From assembly GCF_002946835.1 (NCBI RefSeq), contig NZ_CP026652.1:2728001-2792000 (forward strand): a stretch of 64,000 nt of DNA, given 5' to 3'. This document shows, one piece after another, positions 3,529-61,282 of this stretch. Within the stretch, counting starts at the first letter, position 1. The number at the start of each line of letters is the position of its first letter. The notes under the pieces were generated by a model. That model was given only the letters and a program-made list of their open reading frames with translations. It was not told the DNA's origin and made no database searches. The position numbers and the translations under genes were made by a program. Source of the stretch: Streptomyces dengpaensis. GTDB lineage: Bacteria; Actinomycetota; Actinomycetes; Streptomycetales; Streptomycetaceae.

Positions 3529-4155
3529 ATGCAGAGTCGCACTACCGCCCCCCGTACCGGGCGCCCGCGCAGCGCCGCCGCGGACGCCGCGATCCTGGAG
3601 GCGACGCGCGCGGCACTGGTCGAACTGGGCTGGTCCAAGCTGACGTTGGGCGACGTGGCGACCCGCGCCGGGGTCGCCAAAACGACCCTCTACCGCCGCT
3701 GGGCGGGCAAGAACGAACTCGTGGTCGACGCGGTGGCCGTCCTCTTCGACGAGCTGGAGCTCCCCGACCGGGGCAGCCTGGCCGCCGACATCGAGGGCGT
3801 GGTGCTGCAGTTCGCGGCGATCCTGAGCCGGCCCGAGGCGAAAACGGCCCTGATGGCGGTGGTGGCCGAGTCGACCCGCGACGAGCCGCTGCGCGAACGC
3901 ATCCGCACGTCGGTCGTCGACCGTCAGAAGCGCCTCGTCCTGGAGGGCCGCGCCCGCGCCACAGCCCGCGGCGAACTCCCCCCGGAGCCCGACCCGGCGG
4001 CCGCCGCCCGCACCGTCGACCTGATCTTCGACGTGGTCGCCGGCACGGTGGTCCACCGCACCCTCGTCAGCGCCGAACCCGCGGACGAGGAGTGGGTCCG
4101 CAGCTTCACCAGGGTGCTGCTGGTGGGCCTGACGGGGGCGGGCGCTGATTCTTAG
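3529..4155 (+). CDS. TetR/AcrR family transcriptional regulator
   Basis: The 208-residue protein has a TetR helix-turn-helix at about residues 20-66, with the signature pattern TLGDVATRAGVAKTTLYRRW, followed by an all-helical ligand/dimerisation domain. It is divergent from the thioredoxin-like gene and convergent with the mutase gene. The intergenic space of about 280 bases upstream could hold its own operator. The target genes cannot be deduced. The adjacent mutase gene ends toward it rather than starting next to it, so simple autoregulation of a divergent pair does not apply on that side. Confidence 0.85.
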   Translation: MQSRTTAPRTGRPRSAAADAAILEATRAALVELGWSKLTLGDVATRAGVAKTTLYRRWAGKNELVVDAVAVLFDELELPDRGSLAADIEGVVLQFAAILSRPEAKTALMAVVAESTRDEPLRERIRTSVVDRQKRLVLEGRARATARGELPPEPDPAAAARTVDLIFDVVAGTVVHRTLVSAEPADEEWVRSFTRVLLVGLTGAGADS

Positions 4156-4325
4156 CCCGTCCGGCGTTTGAGGACGAGGCCGTTCAGGCCGATGCGGGGT
4201 CTGGGGGCGGCAGCCCCCAGGAACGATGGGGGTCCCCCCGCTCTGGGGGTACCTCCCAGGCCCTTAAGGCACTGGGGGAGAAGCCGAGAGTGGGGGAGGG
4301 CAGGGGCGGAGGGGGCGAAGAAAGC
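4156..4325 (+). repeat. Nested pair of dispersed G-rich palindromic repeats
   Basis: The stretch begins with GTCCGGCGTTTGAGGACGAG, a word also present (reverse strand) at about 7205-7236, and ends with CAGGGGCGGAGGGGGCGAA, which also ends the 7 kb copy. Between them, positions 4225-4300 hold a second repeat (GGTCCCCCCGCTCTGGGGG, then CTCCCAGGCCCTTAAGGC) that recurs at 51801-51876 and 55320-55394. The 7 kb copy lacks this inner block, so one repeat family appears nested in the other. The element sits between the convergent TetR and mutase genes and may also form terminator hairpins. Confidence 0.75.
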
Positions 4326-7094: not shown

Positions 7095-7238
7095 GCCTTT
7101 CGGTCCCGACCGCCGGGCCGGGGGCGGCTGCGGACGTTTTTCGCCCCCTCCGCCCCTGCCCGTCCCGTACCCGGGGGCCCCGCCCCCCAGACCCCCGTAC
7201 CGCGCTTCGCGCTCGTCCTCAAACGCCGGACGGGCTGG
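7095..7238 (-). repeat. Dispersed G-rich repeat, uninterrupted copy
   Basis: Read on the minus strand, this begins GTCCGGCGTTTGAGGACGAG, continues through GCGGTACGGGGGTCTGG and ends GGGCAGGGGCGGAGGGGGC. The two ends match those of the block at 4156-4325, but without the inner insertion. It lies between the MarR gene and the thiamine-binding-like gene and contains several GC hairpins that could end transcription. Confidence 0.7.
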
Positions 7239-7241
7239 AAA

Positions 7242-7535
7242 TCAGGCCGACAGGTGCCGCTCCACCGTCTCGACCTTGGAGGTCAGACCGTCCGTCACCC
7301 CGGGGCGGATGTCCGCCTTCAGGACGACCGAGACGCGCGGCGCGCGCCTCTCGACGGCGGCGACGGCACGCTTGACCACGTCCATCACCTCGTCCCACTC
7401 GCCCTCGATCGAGGTGAACATCGCGTCCGTGCGGTTGGGCAGGCCCGACTCGCGGACGACTCGGACGGCGTCGGCGACGTACTCGCCCACGTCCTCGCCG
7501 ACGCCCAGCGGCGTCACGGAGAAGGCGACGATCAC
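7242..7535 (-). CDS. MTH1187/YkoF-type thiamine-binding family protein
   Basis: The 97-residue protein begins [11 protein letters not shown] and contains [13 protein letters not shown] and a valine-rich terminal strand, the pattern of the MTH1187 (DUF77, thiamine-binding) ferredoxin-like fold. A much longer frame exists upstream, but the GTG at 7535 is chosen because it overlaps the stop of the preceding DUF3817 gene as GTGA, giving a compact translationally coupled start, and because the family starts here. The family binds thiamine or a related small ligand in some members; the ligand here is unproven. Confidence 0.82.
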
Positions 7536-24896: not shown

Positions 24897-25741
24897 GCAC
24901 GCCCCAGCCCCCGATGCCGCAGCAGGCCGCCCCTGCCCCCAACTGGCAGGCGGCGCCCGGCACTTCGTACACCTCGCCGATCCCGGTCGTGCGCACCCAC
25001 CTCGGTCACGCGCTCTCCTCCGAGTGGACCAAGATCAAGTCGGTGCGCTCCACGATGTGGACGCTCGGCATCTTCCTGCTCCTGGTGATCGGCATCGGCT
25101 TCCTGGTCGCGGCGCAGACCACGAACGCCGACTACACCGAAACCCCGTACACGATCCCGGCCTTCTTCGGGCTGATGCTCGGCCAGATCTGCCTGATCAC
25201 GCTGGGCGTCCTGGTGGTCTCCTCCGAGTACGGCACCGGCATGATCCGTACGACGTTCACGGCCTCACCGCAACGTCACCGGGTGCTCGCCGCGAAGCTG
25301 ATCATCTTCTTCGTGGTGGCGTTCGCCGTGTCGGCCTTCGCGATCGGACTGGTCGGCATGGTCACCGAGGGGATGCACGGCGACGGCTCCTCGGCCGTCC
25401 CGTGGGGCGGCACGGTGCTGAGGGGGTCGCTGTACGTCTCGCTGCTCGGCGTGCTCGCGCTCGCGGTGGGCTCGATGCTGCGTCATTCGGCAGGCGCGAT
25501 CACCACGATGCTCGGCGTCGTACTGGTGCCCGCGATCATGCCCGCCTTCCTGATGTTGTCCGAGAGCATGCGCACCGCCGGCGAGAAGATGCAGGAGTAC
25601 AACGCTCCCAGCGCCCTCGCCAAGATCTTCCAGCTGGACAGCGAGGCCGGGAACGGCGGCGCGCAGCTCGGTCTGCTCGCCGGCATCACAGCGGCGGCGA
25701 TCGTCGGCGCGTTCGTGCTGCTGGAGCGCCGGGACGTCTGA
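24893..25741 (+). CDS. ABC-2 type permease with N-terminal Pro-rich extension
   Basis: The 282-residue permease has a disordered N-terminal extension of about 40 residues (Pro/Gln/Ala-rich, like the tail of its ATPase partner), then ALSSEWTKIKSVRSTMWTL and six hydrophobic segments with the family signature SSEYGTGMIRTTF. It is paralogous to the permease at 22201. The matching low-complexity extensions on the ATPase and this permease occur only in this second pair. The last codons and stop (GACGTCTGA) form the first unit of a tandem repeat. Confidence 0.88.
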   Translation: MSTPQPPMPQQAAPAPNWQAAPGTSYTSPIPVVRTHLGHALSSEWTKIKSVRSTMWTLGIFLLLVIGIGFLVAAQTTNADYTETPYTIPAFFGLMLGQICLITLGVLVVSSEYGTGMIRTTFTASPQRHRVLAAKLIIFFVVAFAVSAFAIGLVGMVTEGMHGDGSSAVPWGGTVLRGSLYVSLLGVLALAVGSMLRHSAGAITTMLGVVLVPAIMPAFLMLSESMRTAGEKMQEYNAPSALAKIFQLDSEAGNGGAQLGLLAGITAAAIVGAFVLLERRDV

Positions 25742-25900
25742 TCCGTCCGACGGGCCGACGTCTGATCCGTCCGACGGGCCGACGTCTGATCCGTCCGACG
25801 GGCCGACGTCTGATCCGTCCGACGGGCCGACGTCTGATCCGTCCGACGGGCCGACGTCTGATCCGTCCGGCAGGCCGGCGTCTGATCCGCCCAACAGGCC
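25733..25900 (+). repeat. 24-bp tandem repeat, seven copies, starting across a stop codon
   Basis: The unit is GACGTCTGATCCGTCCGACG plus GGCC. Copies begin at 25733, 25757, 25781, 25805, 25829, 25853 and 25877; the first five are identical and the last two slightly diverged. Unit length is divisible by three, so every copy presents Asp-Val-stop in the permease frame. The array ends exactly at the stop codon of the convergent gene at 25901. Confidence 0.95.
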
Positions 25901-26274: not shown

Positions 26275-26499
26275 CCTGTCGTCAAACCTCCGTCTGCCCC
26301 GCGGCTCCATGCACGCTCCCCCACTGCCTTGAGGGCGTGGGAGGTGCCCCCACTCGCCGCGCCGGGCCCAGGCCCGAGTACATCCAGTACGAGGGCCAGG
26401 GCCCGGCACGCCGAGAGCACGCACCTACAGCGACATCAGCCGCTCCGCGGCGGGCGCGAGGCCCGCCCTCCGGGCGAACGACGGGAGTTTGACGACAGG
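26275..26499. mobile_element. MITE-like element with terminal inverted repeats
   Basis: The left end CCTGTCGTCAAACCTCCGTC and the right end GACGGGAGTTTGACGACAGG are inverted repeats of 20 bases with two or three mismatches. The 225-base interior has no gene. It contains a variant of the CTCCCCCACTGCC...GGGAGGTGCCCCC repeat found elsewhere in the window. The size, inverted ends and lack of coding fit a non-autonomous element or a decayed insertion sequence. A clear target duplication is not seen. Confidence 0.7.
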
Positions 26500-33815: not shown

Positions 33816-34388
33816 ATGGTCAATCTGACGCGTATCTACACCAGGACCGGCGACCAGGGCACCACCGCCCTCGGCGACATGAGCCGGGTCGCCAAGACCG
33901 ACCTGCGGATCGCGGCGTACGCGGACGCCAATGAGGCGAACGCGGTGATCGGGACGGCGATCGCGCTGGGCGGTCTGGACGAGGAGGTCGTGAAGGTCCT
34001 CACCCGGGTGCAGAACGACCTGTTCGACGTGGGCGCGGACCTGTCGACGCCGGTGGTCGAGAAGCCGGAGTTCCCGCCGCTGCGGGTCGAGCAGTTCTAC
34101 ATCGACAAGCTGGAGGCGGACTGCGACCGCTTCAACGAGCGCCTTGAGAAGCTGCGCTCCTTCATCCTCCCGGGCGGCACAGCTGGCGCGGCCCTGCTGC
34201 ACCAGGCGTGCACGGTCGTACGGCGCGCGGAGCGCTCCACGTGGGCGGCGCTTGAGGTCCACGGCGAGGTCATGAATCCGCTCACCGCGACCTACCTGAA
34301 CCGGCTGTCGGACCTGCTCTTCATCCTGGCCCGGACGGCCAACAGGGACGTGGGCGACGTCCTGTGGGTGCCGGGCGGGGAGCGCTGA
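33816..34388 (+). CDS. Cob(I)alamin adenosyltransferase, PduO type
   Basis: This 190-residue enzyme makes adenosylcobalamin from cob(I)alamin and ATP. The PduO signature is visible: YTRTGDQGTTALGD at the N-terminus binds ATP, LPGGTAGAALLHQACTVVRR is the cobalamin/ATP region, and LNRLSDLLFILAR follows. Length and architecture are standard. It supplies the cofactor needed by the mutase at 4328, with MeaB at 13042 as chaperone. Its stop codon is part of the tandem repeat that follows. Confidence 0.95.
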   Translation: MVNLTRIYTRTGDQGTTALGDMSRVAKTDLRIAAYADANEANAVIGTAIALGGLDEEVVKVLTRVQNDLFDVGADLSTPVVEKPEFPPLRVEQFYIDKLEADCDRFNERLEKLRSFILPGGTAGAALLHQACTVVRRAERSTWAALEVHGEVMNPLTATYLNRLSDLLFILARTANRDVGDVLWVPGGER

Positions 34389-34540
34389 CCGGGTGCCGGC
34401 GCGGGAGCGGTGACCGGGTGCCGGCGCGGGAGCGGTGACCGGGTGCCGGCGCGGGAGCGGTGACCGGGTGCCGGCGCGGGAGCGGTGACCGGGTGCCGGC
34501 GCGGGAGCGGTGACCGGGTGCCGGCGCGGGAGCGGTGACC
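34381..34540 (+). repeat. 25-bp tandem repeat, six copies, starting across a stop codon
   Basis: The unit is AGCGGTGACCGGGTGCCGGC plus GCGGG. Copies begin at 34381, 34406, 34431, 34456, 34481 and 34506, with a partial copy after. The first unit includes the last two codons and TGA of the adenosyltransferase gene and has one base different. The unit length is not a multiple of three. Confidence 0.95.
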
Positions 34541-40737: not shown

Positions 40738-40782
40738 GTGCTCCCCCAGTGCCCCGAAAGGCCTGGGAGATACCCCCAGTCA
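40738..40782 (-). repeat. Dispersed palindromic repeat abutting the atpC stop
   Basis: On the plus strand this reads CTCCCCCAGTGCCCCGAAAG then GCCTGGGAGATACCCCCAG, a shortened copy of the repeat at 4225, 51801 and 55320. It can fold as a hairpin. Its end coincides with the atpC stop codon, so the last atpC bases may derive from the repeat. Confidence 0.75.
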
Positions 40783-51741: not shown

Positions 51742-51882
51742 GCGCGGCCGCTACCGCTGTGGGCAGTCGTTTACCGCTGTGGGCAGTCGTTCCGCAGGGC
51801 GATGGGGGTCCCCCCGCTCTGGGGGTACCTCCCAGGCCCTTAAGGCACTGGGGAAGAAGCCGAGAGTGGGGGAGGGTGGGCA
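51742..51882 (+). repeat. Dispersed G-rich repeat with flanking short duplication
   Basis: CGCTGTGGGCAGTCGTT is duplicated at about 51753 and 51771. The full repeat follows at 51801-51876, nearly identical to 4225-4300 and 55320-55394, ending GAGAGTGGGGGAGGG. GGTGGGCACA closes it, echoing TGTGGGCA at the left end as an inverted word. The block fills the gap between the glyA-like gene and the phosphatase-like gene. Confidence 0.8.
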
Positions 51883-55319: not shown

Positions 55320-55394
55320 ATGGGGGTCCCCCCGCTCTGGGGGTACCTCCCAGGCCCTTAAGGCACTGGGGGACAAGCCGAGAGTGGGGGAGGG
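55320..55394 (+). repeat. Dispersed G-rich palindromic repeat
   Basis: GGGGGTCCCCCCGCTCTGGG, then CCTCCCAGGCCCTTAAGGCA and a final GAGAGTGGGGGAGG, match the copies at 4225-4300 and 51801-51876 almost base for base. It lies between rpmE and prfA and can form several stems, probably affecting read-through between them. Confidence 0.85.
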
Positions 55395-55686: not shown

Positions 55687-55843
55687 GGTGTCTCCTAGTT
55701 TCGGGAGGGCGCCGGGTCGCCGCCGCGGATTGCGGGAGCGTGAACCGGAGCCGACGTACCAGTCTGCCAGGACTGGCGCCATCCCCCAAAACCGGGGGGA
55801 TGGGTGATCTATTCCCGGCGTGCCGGCCGGGGCCCCGTGCGTG

Positions 55844-59170: not shown

Positions 59171-61282
59171 TCAGTCGTTGCCGTTGCCCGGCGACGGCGT
59201 GGTCTTCTGGATCTGAAGCAGGAACTCGGCGTTCGACTTCGTCTGTTTCATCTTGTCCAGCAGCAGCTCGATCGCCTGCTGCTGGTCGAGCGCGTGCAGC
59301 ACCCGGCGCAGCTTCCAGACGATGGCGAGCTCGTCGTTGCCGAGCAGGATCTCTTCCTTACGGGTACCGGACGCGTCGACGTCCACCGCCGGGAAGATGC
59401 GCTTGTCGGCGAGCTTCCGGTCGAGCTTGAGCTCCGCGTTGCCGGTGCCCTTGAACTCCTCGAAGATCACCTCGTCCATGCGGGACCCGGTGTCGACGAG
59501 CGCGGTCGCGAGGATGGTCAGCGAGCCGCCGTCCTCGATGTTGCGCGCCGCACCGAAGAAGCGCTTCGGCGGGTAGAGGGCCGTCGAGTCGACACCACCG
59601 GACAGGATGCGGCCGGAGGCCGGGGCGGCGAGGTTGTACGCACGGCCCAGACGCGTGATCGAGTCGAGCAGCACGACGACGTCGTGACCCAGCTCCACAA
59701 GACGCTTGGCACGCTCAATCGCCAGTTCGGCGACCGTGGTGTGGTCCTCGGCCGGGCGGTCGAAGGTCGAGGAGATGACCTCGCCCTTGACCGACCGCTG
59801 CATGTCGGTGACCTCTTCCGGACGCTCGTCGACCAGGACGACCATCAGGTGGCACTCGGGGTTGTTGTGCGTGATCGCGTTGGCGATCGCCTGCATGATC
59901 ATGGTCTTGCCGGTCTTCGGCGGGGCCACGATCAGACCGCGCTGGCCCTTACCGATCGGCGCAACGAGGTCGATGATGCGGGTGGTGAGGATGCCCGGGT
60001 CCGTCTCCAGGCGGAGGCGGTCCTGCGGGTACAGCGGCGTCAGCTTGTTGAACTCCGGGCGGCCACGGCCGTGTTCGGGCGCCATGCCGTTGACGGAGTC
60101 CAGGCGGACCAGCGCGTTGAACTTCTCGCGGCGCTCACCCTCCTTGGGCTGACGGACCGCGCCGGTGACGTGGTCACCCTTGCGCAGGCCGTTCTTGCGG
60201 ACCTGGGCGAGGGAGACGTAAACGTCGTTGGGGCCCGGCAGGTAGCCCGACGTACGGATGAAGGCGTAGTTGTCGAGGATGTCCAGGATGCCCGCGACGG
60301 GGATCAGGACGTCGTCCTCGGCGAGCTGCGGCTCGGCGATCTCGTCGCGGCCACGACGGCCCCGGCGGTCCCGGTAGCGCCCGCGACGGCCGCGGCGGCC
60401 ACCCTCGAAGTCGTCCCCGTCCTCATCGGCCCGCGGCCCGGTGTCGCGCTGCTGGCGGTCCTGACGGCCGCCGCCCTGCTGCTGACGGTCCTGGCGGTCC
60501 TGGCGCTGCTGGCCGCCGCCCTGCTGCTCGTCGCCCTTGCCACGACGGTCGCGGTCACGGCCGCCACGGTCGCGGTCACGGCGGTCACGGCGGCCCTGAC
60601 GGCCGTCGGCGCCCTCGGCGTCGGCCTTGTCCTCGCCCTGCGCCTGGACCGGGGTCTCGGCCTTCGGCTCGCTCTTCGCCTCGCCGGCGACCGTCTCGGG
60701 GCTGCCCGCCTCGGCGGTGGCACGGCGACGGCGGCGCTCCGCGGGAGCGTCGTCTCCGCCGCGCTCGGCTTCTCCCCCACGCTCGGCTTCGCTCGCGCGG
60801 GAGGTACCCCCATCGCGGGAGGGGCCCCCAGCCGGCTGGCCGGGGATCTCGATCTGCTGCTGGGCCACGGCCTTCTCGGCGGCGGGCTCCGCCGCCTGCT
60901 TCTCGGCCGCGGCGGCCTCATCGCCCGTACGAGCCTTCGAGGTGGCCCGGCGCTTCGGCTTGGCCTCGGTGGCCTCGCCGGCGGGAGAGGACGCGGCCTT
61001 GGCCGGGGCTCCCCCTCCCCCAGAGCCCGAAAGGGCCTGGGAGGTGCCCCCAGCCTGCGCCTCCTTGATGACCTCGATCAGCTGGCTCTTGCGCATACGC
61101 GCGGTGCCCCTGATGCCGAGGCCGGATGCGACCTGCTGCAGCTCGGCCAGCACCATGCCCTCAAGGCCGGTACCGCGGCGCCGCCGGGAGCCGGCACCGG
61201 TGGCAGGCGCAGAGGCGTCCGTGGCGGGCGCGGCAACGGTCTCCTCGACACGTGCGCCCATCAGATCGGTGGTGTCGCTCAC
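59171..61282 (-). CDS. rho: Transcription termination factor Rho with long N-terminal insertion
   Basis: The 703-residue hexameric RNA helicase ends transcription. A Rho-N helical domain (about 38-76) is followed by a disordered insertion (about 77-315), rich in Arg, Gly, Gln and Asp, typical of high-GC Gram-positives. The RNA-binding domain (about 320-400) and the ATPase core follow, with Walker A PPKTGKT (455-461), Walker [11 protein letters not shown] and the Q/R loops. The GTG at 61282 has AAGGA upstream. Residues 77-91 and 151-172 are encoded by two copies of the dispersed repeat seen elsewhere here. Confidence 0.96.
60767..60832 (-). repeat. Dispersed repeat copy read in frame inside rho
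   Basis: This codes for [19 protein letters not shown]. Its DNA on the minus strand, GGGGGCCCCTCCCGCGATGG then GGGGGTACCTCCCGCGCGAG and CCGAGCGTGGGGGAG, is a diverged copy of the intergenic repeat at 4225 and 55320. Confidence 0.8.
61010..61054 (-). repeat. Second dispersed repeat copy read in frame inside rho
   Basis: This codes for [15 protein letters not shown]. On the minus strand CTGGGGGCACCTCCCAGGCC, then CTTTCGGGCTCTGGGGGAG, match the central palindrome of the intergenic repeats. Confidence 0.85.

Follow-up and report, generated by a model that had tools for sequence, protein, structure and literature searches.

Two segments of a Streptomyces Rho linker are very probably in-frame copies of a short, dispersed palindromic repeat

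The best-known case of palindromic repeats invading conserved genes in frame is that of Rickettsia, which is intracellular and has small genomes. The Rickettsia palindromic elements (RPEs), according to the available parts of two sources, are dispersed palindromes that have terminal inverted repeats and a stated size of 105-146 or about 150 bp; they lie between genes and in frame in many unrelated conserved genes and are apparently tolerated there (PMC2229807, PMC10969869). Excerpts of another paper describe Cod-2 of Corynebacterium diphtheriae, a 32-bp repeat in many coding sequences that the authors saw as similar to those of Rickettsia; it counts as a genic repeat, and the peptides that it encodes differ from frame to frame (PMC2267715). 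ERIC (127 bp) and the 107-bp repeat of a section on Correia elements appear in the excerpted source as MITEs with open frames, capable of in-frame fusion to genes (PMC2229807), and REP elements, again in excerpt, as short multi-copy palindromes of 20-40 bp (PMC3733652). The open-access literature searched, with exact repeat strings included and subscription papers mostly outside its scope, held in its accessible parts no description of the repeat reported here, and the accessible parts of PMC8269248 and PMC13269538 contained nothing bearing on it.

Judged against these descriptions, the RPEs appear to be the closest known system to a repeat that we followed from the rho gene of Streptomyces dengpaensis, in a window of 64,000 nucleotides (the whole stretch of DNA analysed). 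By analogy, this repeat would behave like RPE- or Cod-2-type elements, but it falls outside the RPEs in size and host. It is palindromic and hairpin-capable as they are, its copies lie in frame in 11 genes, and relatives have empty sites for rho and five other genes. It differs from RPEs, with which it was compared by description and not by alignment, in its smaller size of 31-75 nt, in its host, being positive only in its own genus within a class sample, in the direct TGGGGG ends of its minimal form and in that a minority of copies (12/63) lie in genes. With Cod-2 it shares the character of a very short actinobacterial repeat with copies in coding sequences; unlike Cod-2, and likewise by description only, it is mostly non-genic, and frame-biased where genic. 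REP elements are associated with RAYT transposases. The Streptomyces repeat resembles them as a short multi-copy palindrome, but its core ends without a GTAG or CGTC tag, its copies are not solely extragenic, and no copy was present in the flanks read of the four Y1-transposase-like (PF01797) loci of the genome, so that PF01797 was rejected as the mover. As with MITEs, it looks non-autonomous and is fused in frame with genes; however, no parent insertion sequence was found with PF01797, the one family tried, and minimal copies showed the direct TGGGGG ends and no visible terminal inverted repeat. When folded, two composite copies are paired almost from one end to the other.

The rho gene occupies 59171-61282 of the window, minus strand, starts with GTG and encodes 703 amino acids that match TIGR00767 over the full length (664 bits versus a cut-off of 509). 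Pfam places Rho_N at residues 40-77 and Rho_RNA_bind at 329-403, and the linker is rich in Gly, Ala and Arg and repetitive. Block A (61010-61054, minus strand) is read as 15 residues, about 77-91, immediately C-terminal of Rho_N; it contains an exact pattern match at 61015-61052 and belongs to the 38-nt TTTCGGG variant, the commoner type being the 37-nt TTAAGG. Block B (60767-60832, minus strand) is a composite repeat read as 19 residues inside a longer repeat-like run, at residues about 151-172 between Rho_N and the RNA-binding domain, with a longer pattern match at 60772-60830. The coordinates and translations of both blocks are as the original prediction gave them. It had also equated the blocks with three composite intergenic copies on the plus strand of the window, at 4228-4300 (about 75 bp), 51804-51876 and 55320-55394; pattern and alignment scores place all of them in one family, but their subtypes differ.

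To describe the family, we used the general search pattern TGGGGGYNCCYCCCN{8,38}TGGGGGAG, with the reversed pattern as control; it is strict and lets diverged copies escape. A copy starts with TGGGGGYACCTCCC or nearly so, continues with a variable hairpin and ends with TGGGGGAG, this core measuring about 31-60 nt, and composites of about 75 nt are frequent. The genome gave 62 matches, which correspond to 53 places after nine overlapping pairs were merged by hand, and the reversed control gave 0. A blast search of the 8.71-Mb genome with the 75-bp copy at 55320-55394 gave 40 scored matches among 104 first-look candidates. At least one match occurred in 125 of 199 genomes of the genus, our own included, and the largest number was 119 (G089). 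In a class sample of 148 genomes, the six positive ones were all among its 11 genomes of the same genus, and the other 137 had none. The results showed that the repeat is dispersed in the genome, as had been predicted, and more widely than noted there; the expectation that would have spoken against it, few genomic copies, is contradicted by the 53 places. In our samples the family appears to be restricted to Streptomyces.

Could GC-rich, low-complexity coding sequence have converged on similar strings without any repeat? The composition of the Rho linker invites this explanation, and the reversed control did match once in the class sample, in a genome outside the genus (G238). Against it, the reversed control matched in none of the 199 genus genomes, and the 41-nt core of block B (60772-60812) is identical at 41/41 bases to four unlinked copies (C1:624564, 3641257, 4556668 and 7386407). 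In local alignment, moreover, rho scored 50 with module A and 82 with module B, versus maxima of 24 and 30 in a null for which each of 99 rho genes was codon-shuffled once. We therefore regard the probability of convergence as practically negligible. The rho segments are instead very probably copies of a dispersed Streptomyces repeat, which is short, palindromic and apparently non-autonomous and of which some copies survive in frame in genes.

The hairpin was examined in 30 distinct 37-mers picked among the matches listed for our own, the genus and the class genomes, three of another arrangement being omitted. A ten-pair stem was paired in 99% of cells. Pair 16-29 covaries (CG in 16, GC in 11, UA in 2 and UG in 1 of the 30), and the covariation score was reached by 0/500 shuffles. 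Of the five pairing measures computed, two were not clearly above shuffles: this pair was the only one altered on both sides, a number reached by 500/500 shuffles, and the further pair types were reached by 64/500; the covariation case for the structure thus rests on one position. Copies are modular, many of them being embedded in either of two longer intergenic contexts and some being enlarged by internal units. At seven loci (L008, L011, L018, L019, L024, L029 and L030), the palindrome lies within a different intergenic repeat (roughly CTGTGGGCAGTCGTTCCGCAGGGCG ... TGGGCACAGCC) and looks as if it had been inserted there.

We then investigated which copies lie in genes. Coding calls came from our own codon score, trained on 24 ORFs of the window and demanding an open frame, without a gene finder. 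Of 63 copies examined in our genome (C1:6037563 and window 40741-40778 stand outside this set), 12 lay in frame in open, coding-like sequence of 11 genes, rho being counted twice with its two forward copies. Forward copies also occur, by Pfam/NCBIfam assignment, in proS (prolyl-tRNA synthetase), pspA (PspA/IM30 protein) and the genes of a zf-HC2 protein, a tricorn-like protease, a PhzF-like protein and an acyl-CoA dehydrogenase, and in a 2-oxoacid:ferredoxin oxidoreductase beta-like gene that we call korB (TIGR02177, below cut-off). Reverse copies occur in sucD (succinate-CoA ligase alpha, Pfam/NCBIfam), in a menaquinone biosynthesis gene that we call mqnD-like (PF02621) and in an unnamed gene at C1:5971932, called by coding score without family profiles. 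Without the open-frame demand, a flank test with both flanks above 0.2 on one strand placed 7/7 copies in frame; at 0.1, by our own reckoning from the output, 11/12 were in frame, the exception being C1:4139079, a copy possibly out of frame with weakly coding flanks. The copy in the acyl-CoA dehydrogenase forms a 12-residue insertion when aligned against the solved structure 3nf4, and that in the mqnD-like protein falls in a gapped stretch of the alignment against 2czl. Rho is not special as a host of in-frame copies. Those within genes add short peptides and are apparently tolerated; new function is not evident.

In genome G089 (5.7 Mb, among the smaller of the genus), the matches listed were mostly of a 31/32-nt subtype. 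Out of its 119 matches, 70 loci representing 63 distinct regions were read, and one of the 70 was genic: it lay in a PcrA-like helicase fragment, in the frame common to most forward in-gene copies of our genome (AGGTSQTESGGG). The common 31-mers of this genome carry TAG in the frame of the PcrA-like copy. At one further locus (L448), one strand of the flanks scores as weakly coding but has no open frame.

The in-gene copies are biased in frame and length. Eight of the nine forward copies in our genome read xxT GGG GGN ... and give GGTS- or GGPS-type linkers; agreement of 8/9 on one given frame has a chance of about 0.001, and on any frame about three times that. A length of 2 mod 3 was found in 8/9 forward in-gene copies versus 9/42 non-genic ones (Fisher p = 0.00028, in a test that treats copies as independent when near-identity is common among the 42). 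The PhzF-like copy is the exception in both frame and length, and the two tests are therefore not independent. The three reverse copies (sucD, mqnD-like and the unnamed gene) have a common frame of their own. Because none of the three forward frames of the 41-mer is interrupted, the frame bias is not due to stop codons alone; it may reflect either selection for hydrophilic linkers or an insertion preference for Gly-Gly codon pairs.

Next, we compared five genes with their relatives at the sites of the copies, reading for each the best 30 loci, which are the best-matching ones and not a random draw, out of matches in 81/150 genomes for proS, 147/150 for korB, 32/101 for sucD, 100/101 for mqnD-like and 100/101 for pspA. 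Empty sites were found in relatives for 5/5 genes. For proS, the site was filled in our genome and in G014, held a remnant in G124 and another short expansion in L262, was empty in 23 and could not be read in 3. For korB, 2 were filled, 2 held other expansions, 24 were empty and 2 were unread; for sucD, 8 were filled or decayed and 22 empty; for pspA, 2 were filled, 24 empty and 4 unread. For mqnD-like, our genome holds a reverse copy and G024 a forward one, 2 loci held other expansions and 26 were empty. The presence of the phenomenon in large Streptomyces genomes and in housekeeping genes for which many sequenced relatives are empty offers a tractable system for studying the agent of movement, the choice of target and frame, and any gain of function by the linkers.

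For rho, we read the 5' part of 99 genes, leaning to near relatives and comprising the top 90 of 197 matching genomes (two contig-end rows skipped) and 9 of 80 loci. Site A was filled in only 5/99 genes, even though the query behind most of them contained block A and the ranking thus favours A-filled genes; module A scored 48-60 at this site in 4/99 (null maximum 24), and L196, L127 and L191 were weakly above the null, at 26-30 versus 24. Module B exceeded every codon-shuffled null in 19/99 genes, 18 in forward and 1 (L112) in reverse orientation. By peptide, using classes that we set by our own expressions to include decayed forms and that left 4/99 genes unscored, site B was empty in 48 of 95 genes, forward-like in 34 and reverse-like in 13, and so filled in 47/95; some genes are also enlarged there by 18-nt units. 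The codons beside the sites are intact in filled and empty genes alike. The prediction of two in-frame insertions in the insertion region of Rho, with sister strains lacking the blocks and keeping their flanks, is borne out by these genes, and the opposite expectation, that all Streptomyces rho genes share the block residues, does not hold among the genes read. Insertion is the best reading of sites that are filled, empty or occupied in opposite orientations.

On a quick single-gene rho tree without bootstraps (97 distinct sequences in the region used, 37/94 inner branches drawn open), on which gain and loss are indistinguishable, the three states of site B required 32 changes and site A 4. 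Over 100 label shuffles, the site B states required a mean of 38.4 changes and a minimum of 31; they carry little phylogenetic signal, for which fast turnover, exchange of alleles and the poor quality of the tree may be responsible, singly or in combination. Sister pairs with SH-aLRT values of 97-99 differed in state: L112 reverse and L131 forward, L116 empty and L167 forward, L135 empty and L140 forward, L037 forward and L039 empty. This weak signal agrees with an explanation in which homologous recombination of core genes, rho among them, carried a few original insertions from species to species and gave the patchiness, and so does the proS insert, which is the same in our genome and G014 (81% identical there) and absent from the closer G040 (93%). 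We nevertheless consider it unlikely as the general account: opposite orientations at site B and in mqnD-like genes mean that separate events are needed, and the 53 places within one genome are left unexplained. The patchiness could partly reflect allele exchange between species.

On the preferred reading, the element has come to occupy numerous sites in both orientations, chiefly outside genes, and the few copies that survive within genes are those preserving the reading frame. The Rho linker has accepted copies repeatedly, in a few species at site A and in many at site B, where copies of both orientations have undergone decay and growth by 18-nt units. We infer that copies arrive by insertion instead of merely being lost, and they may be neutral or nearly so. 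They may land on GGNGG-like targets, that is, Gly-Gly codons. CCGGNGG-like strings that resemble the element ends, with no clean duplication, are present where proS, pspA and rho A are empty; these sites, only three in number, would fit Gly-Gly targeting, and korB and rho B fit it less well. Neither a target-site duplication nor a transposase was demonstrated for the repeat, PF01797 being the sole family tried, and the combination of direct TGGGGG ends with GGNGG-like targets would be consistent with target duplication or with a microhomology process.

The original prediction had further proposed that the blocks were exapted, and we assessed their constraint. The pN/pS of block B was 0.49 in 12 forward genes, an estimate from few codons and non-independent pairs, compared with 0.54 and 0.70 in other free linker, 0.00 and 0.04 in the flanks of block B, 0.06 at KPKRR and 0.05 in Rho_N. 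Block B is under relaxed constraint and evolves like free linker. Retention of the inserted peptides for improving Rho, for instance in RNA binding or in condensate formation by the disordered region, would suit their place in the linker, and a disordered region is reported to drive phase separation of Bacteroides Rho in the available part of a commentary (PMC10284900). We nevertheless rejected exaptation as quite improbable, given this pN/pS unlike that of the conserved neighbours, the scarcity of filled genes at site A, the flipping of site B states with little tree signal and the like peptides that the same repeat contributes to ten unrelated genes. Variable segments of the Rho linker in Streptomyces thus call for caution before being read as adapted features.

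The proposal that the repeat folds within the rho message and alters rho expression or termination fared no better. Two intergenic copies did surpass their shuffles in folding (z about -2.1), the family hairpin contains a compensatory change, and a wider 401-nt rho region was weakly above its shuffles (z -1.70, with 4/100 at least as good). The two rho copies themselves, however, showed no folding advantage over shuffles (z -0.70 and -0.04), the blocks are absent from many rho genes, and the Rfam search of the window returned no family over the repeats. An RNA or DNA role in rho was accordingly rejected, and we give it hardly any credence; the suggested roles of the blocks in phase separation and rho autoregulation are putative and unsupported here.

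A wider possibility, put forward tentatively and with less than even confidence, is that the palindrome serves, throughout Streptomyces, as a natural linker-insertion mutagen. Targeting of GGNGG, a Gly-Gly codon pair, with lengths of 2 mod 3 would produce flexible GGTS...SGG linkers and would have lengthened loops of core proteins repeatedly in frame, in Rho, ProS, KorB-like and PspA proteins, in the PcrA-like helicase of another genome and, by reverse copies, in SucD and the mqnD-like protein. If so, the repeat would have continually fed the evolution of protein loops across the genus.

Two further copies on the minus strand of the window were absent from the original prediction: a 37-nt copy at 26316-26352, exact to the pattern and scored non-coding, and a looser one at 40741-40778, within two substitutions of the pattern. 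The latter starts one base past the stop of a 124-aa ORF that, from our own reading of its sequence, we take to be AtpC-like, which is a terminator-like position. An L31-Actinobacteria ribosomal protein leader (Rfam RF03158) lies at 55708-55754 on the minus strand, about 300 bp from the copy at 55320-55394, and a che1 RNA (RF02935) lies at 1782-1881, also on the minus strand. The window further contains tandem arrays of near-identical 24-bp and 25-bp units at 25733-25876 and 34366-34540, and an inverted pair of a GTTTGAGGACGAG-type repeat at 4145-4178 and 7212-7245 (34 nt, 91% complementary); a GTTTGAGGACGAG-like string borders many palindrome copies elsewhere.
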